Source: Streptomyces hoynatensis (GTDB taxonomy: Bacteria; Actinomycetota; Actinomycetes; Streptomycetales; Streptomycetaceae). Taken from it: 64,000 nucleotides of DNA. A model generated the notes under the pieces. It was not told the origin of the DNA. It did no database searches and was given only the letters and a program-made list of their open reading frames with translations. The position numbers were made by a program, and so were the translations under genes. This document shows positions 49,186 to 60,860 of this stretch, one piece after another (position 1 is the stretch's first letter; every line of letters begins with the position of its first letter). The DNA is taken from positions 186,001 to 250,000 of the forward strand of contig NZ_RBAL01000010.1 in NCBI RefSeq assembly GCF_003626535.1. The letters run 5' to 3'.

Positions 49186-50943
49186 TCAGTCGACCGGCGG
49201 GTAGGCGTTGGCCAGCAGCTCCTGGAACTGAGCCGAGAACCAGTGGCCGGACAGCGGGGCGTTGGGCAGCGCCCCGGACATGTTGTAGTTGTTGCGCGCG
49301 TTGCCCTCGTACGTCGGGTCGCACATCCCGTCGAAGCCCTTGCCCTCGTCGTTCGGGATCTCCTCGCTCGCGCCGTCCGACTCCCCCGGAGGCTTGATCC
49401 ACGCGTAGGCGTCGATCCCGGCCGCGGGCGCCGCGGTCGGCCGCTCACCGAGGCCCGCGCCGGACTGGTTGCACCAGTTGCCGGTCTGGTAACGGCGGTC
49501 GATCCGGCTGCCCTCGACGTAGGAGTTGAGGTCCGTCATCGCCGCCGGGCCCGTGGGACGGTCGGGGCCGCCCCAGCCGTTGCGGGAGGTGTCGATCAGC
49601 ATGCCGATCTCGGAGTTGAAGCCCTGGCTGACCAGCTCGTCGCGGAACGCGAGCGCGAAGGACTGGTTGTCGATGTAGTTGTTCCAGTCGACCCAGTCGG
49701 ACTGCCGCACCGAGGTGCCGTTCACCGAGTCGGTGACGGCGTAGTAGGGCTCGGTGTTGGGGCCGTAGTTGGCCGTGTTGACGATGAAGCCCGCCACGTC
49801 GTCCACCGAGGCGCCGTTCATCGTCGCGGTCTCGTGGAACAGCTCCGCCGCAGGGCCGAAGTTGCTGTCCCAGCCGAGCCAGCCGTAGTGGCCGGCGTCG
49901 ATGTAGTTGTAGACGTTCGGGATGTCACCCAGCTTGGAGAGGGCGTAGGAGATGCCCTCCTGGTAGTTCCCGTTCTGTGCCATCGTCTGGCAGTTCGCGG
50001 TGCCGGTGTCGCCCGAGACGTTGGTGATGAGGTTGGGCAGCGAGTCGATCTCGACGACCGTGGCCACGCGCAGGTTGTCGTACTGCGCGTAGTCGCTGAG
50101 GATGTCCGCGATCGGGTCGATGAACTCCGACTTGTAGCGGTCGATCTCGTCCGGGCCCAGCTCGCCGTTGGAGGCCAGCGCCGCGCAGTCGCGGCCGGGC
50201 AGGTCGTAGATCACGGTCTGGAAGACGATCGGGTCGCCGTTCGCCTGCTCCAGGGCCGCGTCGAGGTGGTCCCTGAGGCTCATCCCGCCGTTGACGCCCT
50301 CGATCGCCGCGATCCGGTCCAGCCACACGGCGGTCGGCTCGTTGGCGATCGCGTCGCCGCCCGGCTCGGCCGCGGCCAGCGCGGACCACTCCGGGTTGAC
50401 GTAGACGTCGGCGCCCTCGTACGGGTTGTCCACGCGGTCGCCGGGCGGGTCGCCGGGGTCGCCCGGGTCCCCGGGGTCACCCGGGTCGCCCGGGTCGCCG
50501 GGGTCGCTCCCGCCGTTGCAGGCCACGCCGTTGACGGAGAACGAGGTCGGGGCCGCGTTGGACCCCGAGTAGGAGAAGTTGCCGCCCATGCTGACCGAGC
50601 CCCCGGCGGCGATGGCGCCGTTGTAGGACTCGTTGGTGACGGTGATGTTCTTGCCGGACTGCGACCACCGGCCGCTCCAGCCCTGCTGGAGCTGCTGGTT
50701 GCCACTGTAGGCGTAGGTCAGCGTCCAGTTGCTGGTCGGCGACGTGCCCGTGTTGTGAATGGTGATGTTGGCCGTGAAGCCTGAGCCCCAGTCATTGGCG
50801 CTGTAGTCCACGTCGCACCCGAAGGCGGCGGCCGACGCGGTGCCCTGCATCAGGCCCCCGGTGCCGATCGCGGTGGCGACCAGGACACCCGCCGTCAGCA
50901 GCGCGGAACGCCTGCGTTTGGGTGGGGGGTTGGTGCGGCTCAT
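49186..50943 (-). CDS. Secreted CBM2-GH6 exocellulase (copy 1)
   Basis: This 585-residue secreted protein has a signal peptide to about residue 39, CBM2 (~40-142), a (GDP)n linker (~147-169), and a GH6 domain. IYDLPGRDCAA holds Asp252, and VVEIDSLPNL holds the likely catalytic acid Asp300. IDTSRNGWGG and KPPGESDG complete the family signature. The size and the loop around ASNGEL suit a Cel6B-type cellobiohydrolase acting from non-reducing ends. It is divergent from the CBM2-GH48 gene, with CebR boxes between. Confidence 0.94.
   Translation of the reverse strand: MSRTNPPPKRRRSALLTAGVLVATAIGTGGLMQGTASAAAFGCDVDYSANDWGSGFTANITIHNTGTSPTSNWTLTYAYSGNQQLQQGWSGRWSQSGKNITVTNESYNGAIAAGGSVSMGGNFSYSGSNAAPTSFSVNGVACNGGSDPGDPGDPGDPGDPGDPGDPPGDRVDNPYEGADVYVNPEWSALAAAEPGGDAIANEPTAVWLDRIAAIEGVNGGMSLRDHLDAALEQANGDPIVFQTVIYDLPGRDCAALASNGELGPDEIDRYKSEFIDPIADILSDYAQYDNLRVATVVEIDSLPNLITNVSGDTGTANCQTMAQNGNYQEGISYALSKLGDIPNVYNYIDAGHYGWLGWDSNFGPAAELFHETATMNGASVDDVAGFIVNTANYGPNTEPYYAVTDSVNGTSVRQSDWVDWNNYIDNQSFALAFRDELVSQGFNSEIGMLIDTSRNGWGGPDRPTGPAAMTDLNSYVEGSRIDRRYQTGNWCNQSGAGLGERPTAAPAAGIDAYAWIKPPGESDGASEEIPNDEGKGFDGMCDPTYEGNARNNYNMSGALPNAPLSGHWFSAQFQELLANAYPPVD
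50440..50506. repeat. 9-bp coding repeat of the GDP linker
   Basis: GGGTCGCCC-like units encode about six Gly-Asp-Pro triplets between CBM2 and GH6. Being a multiple of three, length changes keep frame. The second GH6 copy lacks this linker. Confidence 0.75.
50617..50742. repeat. 126-bp perfect inverted repeat, left arm (CBM2 of GH6 copy 1)
   Basis: This stretch is the exact reverse complement of 51533-51658 in the GH48 gene. Flanking CBM2 sequence differs at a few positions only. Confidence 0.9.
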
Positions 50944-51028
50944 GAGAGTCCTTTCGGTGGTTGCCGAGTCCGATGCCCGACGCCCGTCCGCTGATGCGAC
51001 CGGTCAGCGGCCGTGCCGGCGTCAAGCT

Positions 51029-51042
51029 TGGAAGCGCTCCCA
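51029..51042. promoter_or_regulatory. CebR/CelR box (one mismatch) upstream of GH6 copy 1
   Basis: TGGAAGCGCTCCCA differs from the 14-bp operator TGGGAGCGCTCCCA at one base. It lies ~85 bases upstream of the GH6 start and should bind the LacI-family cellobiose-responsive repressor, whose gene is not in this window. Confidence 0.85.
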
Positions 51043-51205
51043 CTGGTTGAAGGGAAGGTAGCGCCAACGCCCCGCCTCCGCCAGGGTTCTGTTCAAGAAA
51101 TGTGTCGGTGACATGACCAGGAACCCCAGTTGGGGCACGCAAGTCACGCGTTCACCACCGCCGATCGTCCAAGGTCTTGACGCGTACGCGTCTTGGCCAC
51201 ATCCT

Positions 51206-51219
51206 TGGGAGCGCTCCCA
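51206..51219. promoter_or_regulatory. CebR/CelR box (perfect) upstream of GH48 copy 1
   Basis: A perfect TGGGAGCGCTCCCA palindrome lies ~70 bases upstream of the GH48 ATG, a little downstream of GGTCTTGACGC, which may include the -35. Confidence 0.9.
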
Positions 51220-51289
51220 CTGGTTCTTCACTCGCGACCACTGCACGTGCGCAGTCATGTATTCCGAGCCGCAAGGAGGAACCCCTGTC

Positions 51290-53974
51290 ATGCGGGTTCT
51301 CAGACGAGCTCCGGCAGGAGCGCCACCCCCATCGGAGGCGCGGCGCAGACGCCGCGCCCGCAGGGGCCGGATCGCCGCAATGGTCGCGCTGGCCCTCCCC
51401 CTCACCCTGACTGCCGGCCTGAGCCAGAGTTCCACGGCCCAGGCCGCCGCCTTTGCCTGTGACGTGGACTACAGCGCGAACGACTGGGGCTCAGGCTTCA
51501 CCGCCAACCTCACGATCCACAACACGGGCACCTCGCCGACCAGCAACTGGACGCTGACCTACGCCTACAGTGGCAACCAGCAGCTCCAGCAGGGCTGGAG
51601 CGGCCGGTGGTCGCAGTCCGGCAAGAACATCACCGTCACCAACGAGTCCTACAACGGCACCATCGCCGCCGGGGGCTCGGTCAGCATGGGTGCCAACTTC
51701 TCCTACTCGGGCTCCAACACCGCGCCCACCTCCTTCTCCGTGAACGGGGTGACCTGCGGTGAGGACGAGCCGCCCACGGAGGAGGCCGCCGTCGTGGCCT
51801 CGCCCTCCTCGCTGGCCGTCCGGCAGGGGGAGACCGGCACCTTCGGCATCAGGCTGAACACCCAGCCCACCTCGAACGTGACCGTCAGCGTGGCCCGCAC
51901 CAGCGGGAACACCGGCCTGTCGATCAGCGGCCCGGCGACGCGCACCTTCACGCCGTCGAACTGGAACATCACCCAGTCGATCACCATCGCCGCCGATGCC
52001 TCGGGCAGCGGGTCCGCGACGTTCACCGCGTCCGCGCCCGGCCACACCGCCGCCACCATCACCGTCACCGAACTCGGCGGCGGCACCGGGGACGGCGAGT
52101 ACGAGCAGCGGTTCCTCGACCTCTACAACGAGATCAAGGACCCGGCCAACGGGTACTTCTCCCCCGAGGGCATCCCCTACCACTCGGTGGAGACGCTGAT
52201 CGTCGAGGCCCCCGACCAGGGACACGAGACGACCTCCGAGGCGTACTCGTACCTCATCTGGCTGGAGGCCGAGTACGGCCGGATCACCGAGGACTGGGGG
52301 CCGTTCAACGACGCCTGGGAGCTCATGGAGCAGTACATGATCCCCGAGGCGGACGAGCAGCCCACCAACAGCTTCTACGACCCGTCCTCGCCCGCCACCT
52401 ACGCGCCGGAGTCCGACGACCCCTCGGACTACCCGGCCGAGCTGGACGGGAACGTGCCGGTGGGGCAGGACCCGCTGGCCAACGAGCTGTCCTCGACGTA
52501 CGGCACCGACGACATCTACGGCATGCACTGGATCCAGGACGTGGACGACGTCTACGGCTACGGTGACGTGTGCGGTGGGACGAGCGGCGAGCCGACGTTC
52601 ATCAACACCTTCCAGCGCGGCGCGGGCGAGTCGACGTGGGAGACGGTCACGCAGCCCTCCTGCGAGGACTTCACCTACGGCGGCGAGAACGGGTACCTCG
52701 ACCTGTTCACCGGCGACGCCTCGTACGCCAAGCAGTGGCGCTACACGGATGCGCCCGACGCGGACGCCCGGGCGATCCAGGCGGCGTACTGGGCCGGGCA
52801 GTGGGCGAGCGAGCAGGGCAACGGCTCGCAGGTCGCGGGCGTCGTGGAGAAGGCGTCCGAGATGGGCGACTACCTGCGCTACGCGATGTACGACAAGTAC
52901 TTCAAGCGCGTGGGCAACTGCGTGGGCGAGACGGCCTGCCCGGCCGGCAGCGGCAAGAACAGCGCCCACTACCTGCTGTCCTGGTACTACGCCTGGGGCG
53001 GCGCGCTGGACACGAGCGCGGGCTGGGCCTGGCGCATCGGCTCCAGCACGGCGCACTTCGGCTACCAGAACCCGATGGCCGCCTGGGCCCTGTCCAACGC
53101 GGGCAACATGACGCCCGACTCGCCCACCGCGGGTGACGACTGGGACCAGAGCCTGGACCGGCAGATCGAGTTCTACCAGTGGCTGCAGTCCTCCGAGGGC
53201 GGCATCGCCGGTGGCGCGACCAATAGCTGGGAGGGCCACTACGGTCAGCCGCCGTCCGGCACCTCGACGTTCTACGGCATGTACTACGACTGGCAGCCCG
53301 TCTACCACGACCCGCCGTCGAACCGCTGGTTCGGCATGCAGACGTGGTCGATGCAGCGGCTGGCCGAGTACTACTACACGACCGGGGACGAGCGTGCGGG
53401 CGCGGTGCTCGACAAGTGGGTCGACTGGGTCCTGGACGAGATCACCATCGGCGAGGGCGGGGACTACGCGATCCCGTCCGAGCTGTCCTGGTCCGGTCAG
53501 CCCGACACCTGGACCGGCACCCCGACCGGCAACAGCGGTCTGCACGTCACCGTCACCTCCTACACCCAGGACGTGGGCGTGACGGGCTCGCTGGCCAACA
53601 CCCTCTCCTACTACGCCGCCGCCAGCGGCGACACCGCGGCGCAGGAGACGGCGGCCGGCCTGCTGGACGCGCTGTGGGAGCACTCCGACGGCATGGGCAT
53701 CTCGGTGCCCGAGGAGCGCGCCGACTACAGCCGCTTCGAGGACGAGGTCTACATCCCGTCCGGCTGGAGCGGCACCATGCCCAACGGCGACACCATCGAG
53801 CCTGGCTCCACCTTCGAGTCGATCCGCACCTGGTACGAGGACGACCCGAACTGGCCCCAGGTCGAGGACTACCTCAACGGCGGCGACGTGCCCACCTTCA
53901 CGTACCACCGCTTCTGGGCGCAGTCCGACATCGCCATCGCCCTGGCCACCTACGCCAACCTCTTCGGGGGCTGA
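51290..53974 (+). CDS. Secreted CBM2-Ig-like-GH48 exocellulase (copy 1)
   Basis: The ATG follows AAGGAGGA. The 894-residue precursor has an Arg-rich signal region (~1-53), CBM2 (~54-152), an Ig/Calx-beta-like domain (~158-262: [16 protein letters not shown]) and GH48 (~268-894). The catalytic Glu lies in [18 protein letters not shown]. Other GH48 marks are [16 protein letters not shown] and [13 protein letters not shown]48 enzymes are processive and release cellobiose from reducing ends, pairing well with a non-reducing-end GH6. Confidence 0.95.
51533..51658. repeat. 126-bp perfect inverted repeat, right arm (CBM2 of GH48 copy 1)
   Basis: Exact reverse complement of 50617-50742. Together the arms could form a large cruciform or promote gene conversion. 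Confidence 0.9.
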
Positions 53975-54060
53975 CGCGGCGCGGGCGTTCGCGGGAAAGG
54001 GTGGGTGACCTTCGCGCCACCCACCCGACCCGCACCGCATGCACACGGGACACACACACC

Positions 54061-54092
54061 GGAGCCCCGGGGCACACACGCCCCGGGGCTCC
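54061..54092 (+). terminator. Terminator after GH48 copy 1
   Basis: A perfect 13-bp stem (54061-54073 with 54080-54092) closes a 6-base loop about 90 bases after the GH48 stop. Confidence 0.82.
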
Positions 54093-54163
54093 GGCCGCGT
54101 CGAATACACCTTCGACGCTATGGTGTTCGCCACCCCACCGGTCCATCGCAGAAACGGGGAGCC

Positions 54164-55084
54164 ATGGACTACTGCACGACCTGCCGCCGGCATCTGAACG
54201 GCGCGTTGATCTGCCCTGGTTGTGGGGAGCTGACGCCCGGATACCTGGCCGGGGACATGCGCCGGCGCCTGCCCGAGCGCGACGCGGCTCCCTCCTCGGA
54301 CCCCACGGACGCCGGCGAGGCGGCAGGCGGGGAGCCGCCGCGCGAGGAGCGGGGACCCGCCCGCGGGCGGGTCGCCCCGCCGGCGGGCGAGGCCGGTCCC
54401 GAGGCCGCCCGCCCCGGTGAACGGGCGGGAACGCGGCCGCTGCCCGTCGCCGCCCGCGCGGCGGCGCCCGGGCCAGGCCCCGGCGGCGAGGAGGAGGCGG
54501 GCGACGGGCCGGGGGCGGGCGCGGTGGCCGCGACGCGCGAGGGCCGCGGCCGCCCGGGCAAGCGGCACGCCGCCTCCAAGCACCTGCCGCGCAGGTACGT
54601 CCTGGCCACGGTGCTCGGCATCGTCGTGCTCGGCGCCGCCGTCGCGCAGGTGGGCGAGATGGTCATGCCGGCCGCCGAACCCACCCACGCGGAGCGCGAC
54701 ACGCAGGCCGCCGACCACTCGGAGGAGACCGAGCAGGCCGGCGACGAGGAGAGCGCGAACGAGCAGGCCGGGAACGCGGAGCGCACGCAGCCCGCGGCCA
54801 CCGCGACCGAGAGCGCGAGCGCCGAGGAGACCGCGACGGAAGAGGAGGAGGCGCCCGAGTCGCCGGCCGGGGAGAGCCCGCCCCCGGTGCGGGAGGACGG
54901 CAGCGTCCGGACGAGCGACGGGCCCACCGACCCCGAGTCGCCCTCGGACGGCGACTCGTCCAGCCCCGCGGAACCCGACCCCTCGGAGACGGACGGCACG
55001 CCGGGCGGCTCGGACGGCGGGGACGAGGGGGACGAAGGAGACGGCGACGAGGACGACGGCTGCTGGTTCCTCTGGTGCCCGTGA
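54164..55084 (+). CDS. Membrane-anchored zinc-ribbon protein (SCO2400-like)
   Basis: The 306-residue protein opens MDYCTTCRRHLNGALICPGCG, a four-cysteine zinc ribbon. A low-complexity Pro/Gly/Ala region follows, then a single membrane span (YVLATVLGIVVLGAAVAQVG, about residues 146-165). A long acidic Ser/Glu/Asp-rich outer tail ends CWFLWCP. The layout matches SCO2400-family proteins as I recall them. Its role is unknown. It sits between the two cellulase modules and has no clear link to them. Confidence 0.78.
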   Translation: MDYCTTCRRHLNGALICPGCGELTPGYLAGDMRRRLPERDAAPSSDPTDAGEAAGGEPPREERGPARGRVAPPAGEAGPEAARPGERAGTRPLPVAARAAAPGPGPGGEEEAGDGPGAGAVAATREGRGRPGKRHAASKHLPRRYVLATVLGIVVLGAAVAQVGEMVMPAAEPTHAERDTQAADHSEETEQAGDEESANEQAGNAERTQPAATATESASAEETATEEEEAPESPAGESPPPVREDGSVRTSDGPTDPESPSDGDSSSPAEPDPSETDGTPGGSDGGDEGDEGDGDEDDGCWFLWCP

Positions 55085-55108
55085 CGCCCCGGGCGCGCCA
55101 CGGCATCC

Positions 55109-55139
55109 GCCCCCCGGCACCTGGCGGGTGCCGGGGGGC
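55109..55139. terminator. Terminator hairpin between SCO2400-like gene and GH6 copy 2
   Basis: A perfect 13-bp stem (55109-55121 with 55127-55139) closes a 5-base loop. It lies between convergent genes. The remaining 250 bases up to the GH6 stop show nothing further. Confidence 0.8.
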
Positions 55140-55394
55140 GGCGCGTGGGGGGTCGCATGGTGCCCGCGTGGGGCGATCGGGCGGCGCGCCCGTGTGCACG
55201 CCCCGCGTGGGGGACCGCGGAAGGGCGCGCGCCCGACCGGTCGCCCGGCGGCTCCCGGCCCCGCGCGCCGGGTGGCGGGCGGGAACCGGGAGCCGTCGTG
55301 GAACCTGCGGACTTCGGCATTCACCCGTGGCCGTGCGGGGTGCGGCCCGCCACGGGCGGGACGGGCCGCACCTGACCCTCGGCGGAGGGCCGGT

Positions 55395-56777
55395 TTACAA
55401 CGGCGGGTAGGCGTTGGCGAGCAGCTCCTGGAACTGGGCGGAGAACCAGTGACCTGAGAGCGGAGCGTCACCCAGCGCGCCAGAGGGGTGGTTCTGGTTG
55501 CGCGGGTTGCCGCCGTAGCTCGGGTCGCACATCTGGTCGAAGCCCTTGCCCTCGTCGTTCGGGATCTCCTCGCTCGCGCCGTCCGACTCCCCCGGAGGCT
55601 TGATCCACGCGTAGGCGTCGATCCCGGCCGCGGGCGCCGCGGTCGGCCGCTCACCGAGGCCGGCACCGGCCTGGTTGCACCAGTTGCCGGGGTGCAGGCG
55701 GCGGTCGGTACGGCTCTCGTCGACGTAGGTGTTCACGTCCGTCGCCGAGGAGGTCCCGGTGGGACGGTCGGAGCCGCCCCAGCCGTTGCGGGAGGTGTCG
55801 ATCAGCATGCCGATGTCGCTGTTGAAGCCGTCCGAGACCAGCTCGTCCCGGAAGGCCAGCGCAAACGACTGGTTGTCGACGTAGTAGTTCCAGTCCACCC
55901 AGTCGGACTGACGCACCGAGGTGCCGTTCACCGAGTCGGTGACGGCGTAGTAGGGCTCGGTGTTCACGCCGTAGTTGGCGGTGTTCACGATGAACCCGGT
56001 GACGTCGTCCACGGTGGCGCCGTTCATCGTCGCCGTCTCGTAGAACAGCTGCGCGGACGGGGCGAAGTTGCTGTCCCAGCCCAGCCAGCCGTAGTGACCG
56101 GCGTCGATGTAGTTGTAGACGTTCGGGATGTCACCCAGCTTGTCCAGCGCGTAGGAGACGCCGGTCTGGTAGTTCCCGTTCTGCGCCATCGTCTGGCAGT
56201 TGGCGGTGGCGGTCTCGCCCGAGACGTTGGTGACCAGGTTGGGCAGCGAGTCGATCTCGACGACCGTGGCCACCCGCAGGTTCTCGTTCGAGGAGTAGTC
56301 GCTGAGGATGTCCACGATCGGGTCGATGAACTCCGACTCGTAGCGGTCGATCTCGTCGGGGCCCAGCTCGCCGTTGGAGGCCAGCGCCGCGCAGTCGCGG
56401 CCGGGCAGGTCGTAGATCACGACCTGGAAGACGATCGGCTGGCCACCGGCCTGCTCCAGGGCGGCGTCGAGGTGGTCCGCGAGGCCCATCCCGCCGTTGA
56501 CGCCCTCGATCGCCGCGATCCGGTCCAGCCATACGGCGGTCGGCTCGTCGGCGACCGCGCTGCCACCCGGCTCGGCCGCGGCCAGCGCGGACCACTCCGG
56601 GTTGACGTAGACCTGGGCGCCCTCATAGGGGTTGTCGACTCGGGCCAGGGTGTGCGGGGCCTCGTCGGCCGACGCGAAGTTCATCGTCCCCAGCGTGAGG
56701 GCCATGGCGCCGGCCAGGGCGCCCATGACGAGCGTCCGCTGCGTGCGGCGCCGGGGTGGGGGGTTGGTGCGGCTCAT
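55395..56777 (-). CDS. Secreted GH6 exocellulase without CBM (copy 2)
   Basis: The 460-residue precursor shares the first residues MSRTNPPP with copy 1. Its signal peptide runs to about residue 38 and leads directly into the GH6 domain (VDNPYEGAQVYVNPEWSALA). The catalytic signatures YDLPGRDCAA, VVEIDSLPNL, IDTSRNGWGG and KPPGESDG are intact. Long DNA stretches are identical to copy 1 (for example 55536-55661 with 49330-49455). It lacks CBM2 and the GDP linker, so it should act on soluble or loosened cellulose or with other binding partners. Confidence 0.94.
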   Translation of the reverse strand: MSRTNPPPRRRTQRTLVMGALAGAMALTLGTMNFASADEAPHTLARVDNPYEGAQVYVNPEWSALAAAEPGGSAVADEPTAVWLDRIAAIEGVNGGMGLADHLDAALEQAGGQPIVFQVVIYDLPGRDCAALASNGELGPDEIDRYESEFIDPIVDILSDYSSNENLRVATVVEIDSLPNLVTNVSGETATANCQTMAQNGNYQTGVSYALDKLGDIPNVYNYIDAGHYGWLGWDSNFAPSAQLFYETATMNGATVDDVTGFIVNTANYGVNTEPYYAVTDSVNGTSVRQSDWVDWNYYVDNQSFALAFRDELVSDGFNSDIGMLIDTSRNGWGGSDRPTGTSSATDVNTYVDESRTDRRLHPGNWCNQAGAGLGERPTAAPAAGIDAYAWIKPPGESDGASEEIPNDEGKGFDQMCDPSYGGNPRNQNHPSGALGDAPLSGHWFSAQFQELLANAYPPL

Positions 56778-57139
56778 TGCTGTGGTTCCTCCAGACTTGC
56801 GCCGGCGCCGGACCCGCCGAGGGGCCGGTGTGCCGTCGTCGTGATCGGGAATGAACGGAAATCTCCGGCAGGTTCACCGGGGTCCGGCAGCCGTGCGGAG
56901 GCGGGCGGCGTCTGTCGCCCGGGGGCCGTCTGCGGTGCCTCACCGGCATCGCCCACGGGCACGTCGCACACCCACGCATGCCGCCGGGCCCCACCGTGGG
57001 CAGCACGGGGCCGCCCGCGGCGTGGCACCGCCCGGGAAGGGAAACGGACCTGCGGGTACTCGTTCTCGCTCGCCGAACACGAGCCGGTGGCAGCCGGCGA
57101 AAACGCCGGCGGGAAGACCGGCAGGACGCCCGGCGAAGA

Positions 57140-57178
57140 GGGTGGGGGTGGATGTGGGGGGTGTGGGGGATGTGGGGG
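57140..57178 (+). other. G-quadruplex-type sequence
   Basis: Runs of five or six G occur at 57144, 57156, 57165 and 57174, separated by 3-7 bases, with an extra GGG before. This is a strong G4 motif on the plus strand, which is the template strand for the leftward GH6 gene. Confidence 0.75.
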
Positions 57179-57233
57179 TGCATGCGGAGCGACTCCAGGT
57201 CGTCAGGCACGCCGTCCGAGGCGTCCGACAGCT

Positions 57234-57247
57234 TGGGACCGCTCCCA
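57234..57247. promoter_or_regulatory. CebR/CelR box (one mismatch) on GH6 side of module 2
   Basis: TGGGACCGCTCCCA differs by one base from the perfect operator. It is the positional equivalent of the box at 51029. Confidence 0.85.
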
Positions 57248-57377
57248 CTGGTTGAAGGGACGGTAGGCCACAAGCCCCCTCCGCGCCAAGGGGTCGTTCG
57301 AGAAATTACCGCTGACCTGCCCCGCAACCGCGGGATTTCGCAAGGGTCTTGACGCCTGGAATCCATTGCTCAAAGCT

Positions 57378-57391
57378 TGGGAGCGCTCCCA
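57378..57391. promoter_or_regulatory. CebR/CelR box (perfect) upstream of GH48 copy 2
   Basis: A perfect TGGGAGCGCTCCCA lies ~70 bases before the GH48 ATG, equivalent to the box at 51206. Confidence 0.9.
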
Positions 57392-57461
57392 CTGGTTTCC
57401 GTGTGCACGCCACTGCGGGCGTGTGCAGCTCCTCATCCCCCACGAATCGCGAGGAGGCACC

Positions 57462-59537
57462 ATGCGGGTCCACCTGCGGGTCCCCACTCGGGGCCTGCGA
57501 CATTCCCCCACCACCCCGAGATCCCGGAAGGCACAGTCGCGAAGGAACAGGCGGCTGTGGACGATCGGCGCCCTCGCCCTGGCCCTCCCGCTGGGCCTGA
57601 CCGGCGCCGCCCAGGGCAGCTCGGCCTCGCCCTTCGGCGAGGACCCCCACCTGACGGCCTACGAGGAAGACTTCCTCAACCTGTACAACGAGATCAAGGA
57701 CCCGGCCAACGGGTACTTCTCCCCCGAGGGCATCCCCTACCACTCGGTGGAGACGCTGATCGTCGAGGCCCCCGACCAGGGACACGAGACGACCTCCGAG
57801 GCGTACTCGTACCTCATCTGGCTGGAGGCCGAGTACGGGCAGGTCACCGGGGACTGGGGGCCGTTCAACGACGCTTGGGCGCTCATGGAGCAGTACATGA
57901 TCCCCGAGCACGACGAGCAGCCCACCAACAGCTTCTACAACCCGTCCTCGCCCGCCACCTACGCGCCCGAGTCCGACGACCCCTCGGACTACCCGGCGCA
58001 GCTGGACGGCAACGTGCCCGTCGGCCAGGACCCCCTCGCGGACGAGCTGTCCTCGACCTACGGCACCGACGACATCTACGGCATGCACTGGCTGCAGGAC
58101 GTGGACGACGTCTACGGCTACGGCGACGTGTGCGGTGGGACGAGCGGCGAGCCGACGTTCATCAACACCTTCCAGCGCGGCCCGGGCGAGTCCACCTGGG
58201 AGACCGTCACCCAGCCCTCCTGCGAGGACTTCACCTACGGCGGGCAGAACGGGTACCTCGACCTGTTCACCGGCGACGCCTCGTACGCCAAGCAGTGGCG
58301 CTACACCAACGCGCCCGACGCGGACGCGCGGGCCATCCAGGCGGCGTACTGGGCCGGGCAGTGGGCGAGCGAGCAGGGCAACGCCGCCCAGGTCGCGGAC
58401 GTCGTCGCCAAGGCGTCCGAGATGGGCGACTACCTGCGCTACGCGATGTACGACAAGTACTTCAAGGAGGTCGGGGACTGCGTCGGCGAGTCGGCCTGCC
58501 CGGCCGGCAGCGGCAAGAACAGCAGCCACCAGCTGCTCTCCTGGTACTACGCCTGGGGCGGCGCCCTGGACACGAACGCCGGCTGGGCCTGGCGCATCGG
58601 CTCCAGCTACGCCCACTTCGGCTACCAGAACCCGATGGCCGCCTACGCGCTGAGCGAGGGCGGCATGACCCCCGAGTCGCCCACCGCGGGCGACGACTGG
58701 GCCGGGAGCCTGGATCGGCAGCTGGAGTTCTACCAGTGGCTGCAGTCCTCCGAGGGCGCCATCGCCGGCGGTGCCACCAACAGCTGGCAGGGCCACTACG
58801 CCCAGCCCCCGTCCGGCACCTCGACGTTCTACGGCATGTACTACGACGAGCAGCCCGTCTACCACGACCCGCCGTCGAACCGCTGGTTCGGCATGCAGGC
58901 CTGGTCGATGCAGCGGCTGGCCGAGTACTACTACGCGACGAACGACGAGCGGGCCGGGGCGATCCTCGACAAGTGGGTCGACTGGGTGCTCGGCGAGGTG
59001 ACCATCGGGGAGGGCGGCGACTTCCAGATCCCGTCGAACCTCTCCTGGGACGGCCAGCCCGACACCTGGGACCCGGACAACCCGGGTGACAACGCGGGCC
59101 TGCACGTGAGCGTCGACAGCTACTCGCAGGACGTGGGCGTGACCGGCTCGCTGGCCAACGCCCTCTCCTACTACGCCGCCGCCAGCGGGGACACCGCGGC
59201 CCAGGAGACCGCCTCCGGCCTGCTGGACGCGCTGCTCGCGCACGACGACGGCGTCGGCATCTCGGTCGAGGAGCCCCGCGAGGACTACAGCCGCTTCGAG
59301 GACGAGATCTACATCCCGTCCGGCTGGAGCGGCACCATGCCCAACGGCGACACCATCGAGCCTGGCTCCACCTTCGAGTCGATCCGCACCTGGTACGAGG
59401 ACGACCCGAACTGGCCCCAGGTCGAGGACTACCTCAACGGCGGCGACGTGCCCACCTTCACGTACCACCGCTTCTGGGCGCAGTCCGACATCGCCATCGC
59501 CCTGGCCACCTACAACCGTCTCTTCCCCGACGCGTAG
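57462..59537 (+). CDS. Secreted GH48 exocellulase without CBM (copy 2)
   Basis: The ATG follows GAGGAGG. The 691-residue precursor has an Arg-rich signal region to about residue 60, then only the GH48 domain, with the catalytic Glu in [14 protein letters not shown]. It lacks the CBM2 and Ig-like domains of copy 1. DNA at 57684-57838 and 59308-59513 is identical to 52124-52278 and 53748-53953. It is divergent from GH6 copy 2 and shares CebR control. Confidence 0.95.
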
Positions 59538-59632: not shown

Positions 59633-60860
59633 TCAGCCCCCGGGTCCCGGCCCGGGCGCCCCGGCCCGGGCGCCCCGGCCCGGGCGCCCCGGCCCGGGCG
59701 CGGCGGCCGCCGGTGCCTGGGCCGTGCCAGTCCAGGCACAGGACGGTGGCGTCGTCCCTGGGGTGGCCGCCGGTGGCCTCGCTCACCTCGGCGGTGAGCG
59801 CGCGGACCACCTCGCGTGGGTGCAGGGCGGCGGTCTCCCGCAGGCGCGCGGGCAGGTCGACGGCCGCCGCCTCCCGGTCCTGCAGGCCGTCGGTGTAGAA
59901 GAGCAGCCGGTCGCCGGGGCACACGGGCAGTTCCTGTACCTCGTAGACGCCGTCGGGTTGCAGGCCGAAGGGCAGGTCGACGCGGGGGGTGAGCTCCTCG
60001 ACCAGGCCGTCGCGCAGCCGCAGCGGCCAGGGGTGGCCGGCGTTGACCAGCCAGGCGCGGCCGGTGTCCAGCGAGAAGCGCAGCAGCTGGCCGGTGGCCG
60101 TCGCCTCCCCTCCGCCGTGGTTCCGGAGCGCCTCGTGCACGCGGCGGGCCTGGCCGGCCAGGTCGAGCCGGGCGCGGCGGGCGCCGCGTGAGGCGTTGAC
60201 CAGCAGGGTGGCGAGCAGCGCGGCGCGGACGTCGTGGCCCATGGCGTCGGTCACGGACAGGTGCAGGGTGTCCCGGTCGAGGGTGTAGTCGTAGGTGTCG
60301 CCGCTGATGTCGTCGGCGGGGACGACGGCCCCGGCGAGCACGAACTGGTCCGCCTCGCAGCAGGAGGCCGAAGGCAGCAGTTCCCGCTGGATCTCGCCGG
60401 CCAGGCTCACCGGGGTGGTGCGCTGCCCCCAGTCGTAGAGGTCGGTGAAGCGGCGGTCGGTGACGAGGAGGTACGCCAGCGCGTGCGCGCCCTGGCCGAT
60501 CTGTTCGAGCACCTCGCCGTCGGCCTCGGGCAGGGTCAGTTCGAGCACGCCGATGGCGTCGCCGCGGTTGGTGACGCGCGCCAGCACCCGCCGCTCCCGG
60601 TCCCCCGTGTCCGCGGTGACCACCCGCTGGGTGCGCAGCACCTGCTCGTACAGGCTTCCGGCCAGCGGGATGCGCTCCGCCTCCTGCTCCTCCGGGGCGT
60701 CGGCCTCGGCGCCCACCCGCACCACCTGACGGCCGACGACGTCGAGGAACCTGAAGGAGACGGAGCGCGCGCCGAAGCGGTCCCGCAGGTTCCGCGCCAC
60801 CACGTCGATGGATCGCGAGGGGGCGGCGTTCTCGGCCGCCGCGAGCACCTCGCCCAGCAT
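59633..60860 (-). CDS. SpoIIE-type PP2C phosphatase with GAF-like domain (3-prime frame disturbed)
   Basis: The ATG at 60860 follows AAGGAG (GTG 60878 is also possible). A GAF-like sensor spans residues ~1-170, then a SpoIIE/PP2C phosphatase: LAGAVVPADDISGDTYDY, VTDAMGHDVRAALLATLL and LLFYTDGLQDR, ending DDATVLCLDWHG. This class dephosphorylates anti-anti-sigma proteins. The listed end is the expected TGA at 59633-59635, but as written it is one base out of frame. The frame passes a 14-bp tandem repeat and stays open to 57306, antisense to GH48 copy 2. Confidence 0.8.
59647..59702. repeat. 14-bp tandem repeat, four copies, at the phosphatase C-terminus
   Basis: CCGGCCCGGGCGCC occurs three times perfectly and a fourth time with the last base changed. 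Fourteen is not a multiple of three, so each copy gained or lost shifts the phosphatase frame. One extra copy would bring the nearby TGA into frame. Confidence 0.92.

Follow-up and report, generated by a model that had tools for sequence, protein, structure and literature searches.

How can two neighbouring pairs of cellulase genes share long stretches of identical DNA when one pair carries CBM2 on both of its enzymes and the other pair on neither? We examined this question in a genomic stretch of 64,000 nucleotides from Streptomyces hoynatensis (the whole of which is called the window below). The explanation that we favour, with a probability of about 0.75, is that an old duplication fixed the difference between a CBM2-bearing and a CBM-less type, and that gene conversion later homogenised the catalytic parts of the two pairs.

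Two GH6/GH48 modules in one window

The host genome is a Streptomyces draft (7.26 Mb, 52 contigs, 99.7% complete), and the window contains two divergent GH6/GH48 pairs, module 1 (49186–53974) and module 2 (55395–59537), which lie 1.4 kb apart in the same orientation; the genome has no GH48 gene other than the one in each module. In module 1, the GH6 gene (49186–50943, minus strand; 585 aa; Pfam GH6 E=4e-91) encodes a putative exocellulase with an N-terminal CBM2 (CBM_2 E=4e-28), and the gene on the other side (51290–53974, plus strand; 894 aa from the likely start; NCBIfam CbhB-like) encodes a putative CBM2-GH48 exocellulase. Module 2 consists of a GH6 gene (55395–56777, minus strand; 460 aa; Pfam GH6 E=1e-88) and a GH48 gene (57462–59537, plus strand; 691 aa from the likely start; Pfam GH48). 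The Pfam search found a CBM_2 domain on both module 1 enzymes and none on either of the two module 2 proteins, as the original prediction had proposed for these two divergent pairs. The module 2 GH48 is also devoid of the ~100-residue module that follows CBM2 in the module 1 GH48. The likely GH48 starts are the ATG codons at 51290 and 57462, which stand behind AAGGAGG and GAGGAGG, respectively. A SCO2400-family gene (54164–55084, plus strand; NCBIfam NF049861, E=1e-14) lies between the modules and outside both of them, and downstream of module 2 a SpoIIE-type phosphatase gene contains, at its 3' end, head-to-tail 14-bp repeats of the CCCCGGCCCGGGCG type (59646–59701).

The GH6 domain is full length in the two copies (306 and 298 bits; curated cut-off 27), and so is the GH48 domain (1053 and 1036 bits; cut-off 25). 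The closest solved structures are the beta-1,4-exocellulases 4b4f/4avo for the GH6 enzymes (4b4f with E=1.5e-206 for module 1) and the cellobiosidase 4jjj for the GH48 enzymes (E=4e-264 for module 2); we take 4b4f/4avo to be T. fusca Cel6B and 4jjj to be T. fusca Cel48A. The catalytic aspartate motifs GRDC, EIDSLPN and PPGESDG are intact in both GH6 copies, with residue roles that are presumably those of T. fusca Cel6B. Judged by these nearest solved relatives, both pairs are predicted to be of the exocellulase type. Actinobacterial GH48 enzymes that have been characterised act as exocellulases on the reducing end (PMC3377646), and for Streptomyces a GH6 cellobiohydrolase is described that works from the non-reducing end (PMC4898821); each module would accordingly encode two head-to-head exocellulases that attack cellulose chains from opposite ends, with GH48 at the reducing and GH6 at the non-reducing end.

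Identical tracts within the catalytic domains

The exact tracts that had been claimed between the modules were recovered by sequence comparison, one of 126 bp in the GH6 genes (49330–49455 and 55536–55661) and two in the GH48 genes, of 155 bp (52124–52278 and 57684–57838) and 206 bp (53748–53953 and 59308–59513). Over the catalytic domains, the modules are 89% (GH6) and 90% (GH48) identical at the nucleotide level, and dS between them is 0.23 for GH6 and 0.21 for GH48, as compared to 0.38–0.56 to the sampled copies of other species. Permuting the codon order gave a mean longest identical run of 55 bp for GH6 and 69 bp for GH48, and the observed longest runs (126 and 206 bp) were reached in 0 of 5000 permutations; the tracts are for this reason read as conversion patches and not as marks of a young duplication. 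The putatively homogenised parts cover 55401–56643 in the module 2 GH6 (minus strand; 89%; containing the 126 bp tract) and 52112–53953 in the module 1 GH48 (plus strand; 91%; containing the 155 and 206 bp tracts). Sliding windows are suggestive of an unconverted stretch kept in GH48 at codons ~415–530, for which a tree of the segment gave no decision.

The similarity of the two modules is confined to the catalytic domains and ends ~20 bp before the GH48 stop codons. No significant similarity was found when the 3' flanks of the two modules were compared, and the centres are alike mainly at the operator region and in the first GH6 codons. A recent duplication of the whole module was rejected, as flanks and centre do not match. 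The draft state of the genome (52 contigs) and exact repeats of up to 206 bp could raise the suspicion that repeats were collapsed or misjoined in the assembly, but such an artefact is hardly credible: both modules lie within one contig, with different flanks and ~10% divergence, and in MP131-18 and S. radicis a single contig likewise holds both module types.

Both module types in related genomes

One CBM2 module and one CBM-less module each were found in Streptomyces sp. SBT349, Streptomyces sp. MP131-18, S. radicis and S. hainanensis (in S. hainanensis the modules are scattered over short contigs), and two genomes of the same rpoB clade (G069 and G188) have the CBM-less type only. This clade comprises seven genomes in the rpoB tree, and the branching order within it is not fixed by rpoB. 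In MP131-18 and S. radicis, the modules are ~10 kb apart and in opposite orientation. A SRAP family gene adjoins the CBM2 module in the window, MP131-18 and S. radicis (as part of a longer conserved block in MP131-18), and another conserved block adjoins the CBM-less module in MP131-18, S. radicis and SBT349 and is also present beside the single modules of G069, G188 and S. aidingensis.

Other arrangements were seen further afield. In G145 and G167, the CBM-less module is ~5 kb from rpoB, a location unlike that in the other genomes. G137, G216 and G079 (loci L156, L157 and L162) have a CBM-less GH6-GH48 pair whose genes are co-directional, with a GH48 leader of twin-arginine-like character and, upstream, one perfect CebR box. 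A parallel double system, with and without CBM, was considered for G079 and G216 and rejected, as the second GH48 there has no nearby GH6 partner and no adjoining CBM2.

CebR operators and promoter trees

Operators had been predicted in both modules, and each centre indeed has two CebR-type boxes, one perfect and one with a single mismatch. In module 1, TGGAAGCGCTCCCA lies on the GH6 side (51029–51042) and the perfect box TGGGAGCGCTCCCA on the GH48 side (51206–51219), with a spacing of 177; in module 2, TGGGACCGCTCCCA lies on the GH6 side (57234–57247) and TGGGAGCGCTCCCA again on the GH48 side (57378–57391), with a spacing of 144. There are 25 perfect boxes genome-wide (0 for a reversed-pattern control). 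In Streptomyces this motif serves as the CebR site, the number of such sites correlates with cellulolytic ability, and derepression of the CebR regulon by cello-oligosaccharides has been described for other Streptomyces (PMC4898821). CebR probably controls both modules in this strain, and the shared central promoter region of each would then be repressed until cello-oligosaccharide appears.

The CBM2 modules of all five species with both types have TGGAAGCGCTCCCA as the GH6-side operator and a spacing of 176–177, and all CBM-less modules of the same species have TGGGACCGCTCCCA and a spacing of 144; the TGGGACCGCTCCCA form of module 2 recurs in CBM-less modules of six further genomes. The two types differ across the entire centre, i.e. 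in operators, spacing, signal peptides and the presence of CBM2. In trees built on the region between the operators, module 1 groups with the CBM2 modules of the clade (support 100/100 and 99/99) and module 2 with the CBM-less modules (moderate support, 94/93 and 89/98), and the AU test rejects a sister placement of the window promoters (p-AU 8e-5). Across the inter-operator DNA, module 2 shares 84–89% identity with the CBM-less modules of MP131-18, S. radicis and SBT349, and the corresponding values are 77% for the S. hainanensis CBM-less module and 68% for module 1. The leaders of the CBM-less GH6 proteins cluster together as well, although weakly (87/90 on 47 columns). The promoter trees, together with the sequence and spacing of the operators (144 vs. 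176–177), show an old split, one in which the CBM2-bearing and CBM-less centres, as far as these sequences tell, separated before the five sampled species diverged. The idea of a duplication with coordinated gain or loss of CBM2 in this lineage, as put forward in the original prediction, has to give way to this older split.

Conflict between promoter and catalytic trees

In trees of the catalytic domains, the two window copies are sisters (100/99 for GH6 and 100/99 for GH48), and so are the two S. hainanensis copies (99/98 and 100/99). The modules are paralogues, as had been predicted, and the placement of the copies in distant catalytic clades was not seen; separate acquisition of the two modules is not supported by these sister relationships. 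AU tests reject a clade that unites module 2 with three further CBM-less copies (p 1e-5 for GH6 and 0.002 for GH48), and likewise a single clade of the catalytic domains of all seven CBM-less modules (p 7e-65 and 3e-6). Adjacent segments are in conflict, i.e. promoter trees against catalytic trees, in both the window and S. hainanensis.

That the catalytic copies are mutually closest in both genes would be expected if the CBM2 module had been duplicated in tandem within this lineage and the two genes of the second copy had then lost CBM2 independently, an account close to that of the original prediction. We regard it as quite improbable, since module 2 matches the CBM-less modules of other species in its promoter, its form of the operator, the 144 spacing and its leaders, the joined window promoters are rejected by the AU test given above, and the DNA is dissimilar outside the catalytic domains. 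The nearest rival to gene conversion is a swap of the centre, in which recombination would have replaced the centre of a recent copy of module 1, comprising promoter, signal peptides and N-termini, by a CBM-less one; the donor could have been a CBM-less module already in the genome or one gained by horizontal transfer. It would leave a mosaic nearly identical to that of conversion, and because both N-termini flank one central promoter, a single exchange could swap both. We still consider it unlikely: the similarity stops where the genes end on their 3' sides, S. hainanensis acquired the conflict between promoter and catalytic trees independently, and no new import has to be assumed when both types are already present in five species.

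Gene conversion following an old duplication is what we infer as the mechanism; the anatomy of the modules, the patchy identity and the phylogenetic conflict are directly observed. The duplication would have given rise to the CBM2-bearing and the CBM-less type, and later ectopic conversion between the neighbouring modules would have homogenised the catalytic domains in this lineage and, separately, in S. hainanensis, while the dissimilar centres would not have been exchanged. Among the papers searched, none linked gene conversion to GH48 cellulases.

Mosaic structure was also seen in other genomes. The CBM-less GH6 genes of MP131-18, S. radicis and SBT349 have a divergent middle (~64–72% to the partner copy) and more similar ends. 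The mosaic GH6 genes of CBM-less modules (L145:5438-6679, L146:5551-6795 and L152:6293-7537) branch close to CBM-less, co-directional GH6 genes from more distant Streptomyces, and partial domain replacement is their likely origin.

CBM2 segments and pairs without CBM2

The CBM2 coding segments of the module 1 GH6 (50515–50823, minus strand) and GH48 (51452–51757, plus strand) are 92.5% identical, the highest value among the species examined (GH6 and GH48 CBM2 identity is 75–84% in related species and 60–69% in others). They form an inverted repeat of 316–325 bp (50518–50842 and 51433–51757; 92%) that was absent from the original prediction. In the wider clade of the window, GH6 carries a CBM2 of the GH48-CBM2 type, which a 100/100 branch parts from the usual GH6 type. 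The two segments of module 1 have apparently been homogenised with each other, which inverted conversion would explain. Given the near-identical CBM2 segments, the GH48-type CBM2 on GH6 and the mosaic GH6 genes, the locus therefore seems to exchange pieces often.

Among related loci with both genes, CBM2 is present on both enzymes in 64, on neither in 14, and missing on GH6 only in 9 (L008, L009, L012, L013, L018, L019, L023, L025 and L026, where GH48 has CBM2), and none was found with CBM2 missing on GH48 only; the sample was picked by similarity to the module 2 GH48 plus short GH48 frames, and because of this bias the counts are descriptive. The joint absence of CBM2, which had been called unusual, does hold for module 2 but is not unique to this genome, as the 14 CBM-less pairs of this biased sample illustrate. 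These counts suggest that the loss of CBM2 can begin with GH6, and pairs with CBM2 on GH48 only are possible intermediates towards CBM-less pairs. The CBM-less pair of G125/G195 is probably a separate loss of CBM2, since its leader differs and only one operator was recognised.

Predicted roles of the two pairs

From their domains, one pair would be anchored to crystalline cellulose and the other unanchored, and a division of labour between anchored (module 1) and free (module 2) enzymes is plausible. "Anchored vs. unanchored" is safer wording than crystalline vs. soluble cellulose; since both pairs are predicted to be exocellulases, "soluble cellulose" fits them less well. Fungal cellobiohydrolases need CBMs when dilute, and CBM-less ones catch up at 20% solids (Varnai et al., PMC3599012). 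By analogy, a free pair beside an anchored pair under one regulator could serve a wider range of conditions. More tentatively, the head-to-head centre may be the unit that sets the CBM2 state of both enzymes, with selection keeping both pairs and conversion matching their cores, so that the locus would be a long-lived two-state system and not a passing duplicate; we hold this for possible, though doubtful.

The locus offers a natural matched experiment: a single genome holds both exocellulase cores in a form with CBM2 and in one without it, and the cores appear to be kept alike by conversion in some species and have diverged in others. PMC3599012 asked why a CBM is missing from many cellulases, and this question becomes testable within one organism. 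There is also a warning in these results: since the promoter and the catalytic parts of such genes differ in history, duplications are misdated when they are judged by catalytic-domain trees.

Comparison with known systems

Module 1 shares gene order and divergent orientation with the CebR-controlled GH6-CBM2/CBM2-GH48 pair of Streptomyces (PMC4898821), and is alike in its two CebR boxes and domain make-up (64 such pairs are found among the related loci). The GH6 CBM2 in the window is of the GH48-CBM2 type, whereas the other Streptomyces compared have another type. The window differs from the usual CebR-controlled pair in a second, CBM-less pair beside it, with catalytic domains apparently homogenised between the two. 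The catalytic domains are nearest to those of the exocellulases 4b4f/4avo and 4jjj, with conserved GH6 motifs; unlike these, the module 2 enzymes have no CBM. Lone CBM-less pairs, which contain the only GH48 of their genome (G069, G188, G145, G167 and G105), likewise have no CBM2 on either enzyme, and have CebR-type boxes 143–151 bp apart and GH6 leaders like that of module 2. Unlike the window, they are single modules with no CBM2-bearing partner.
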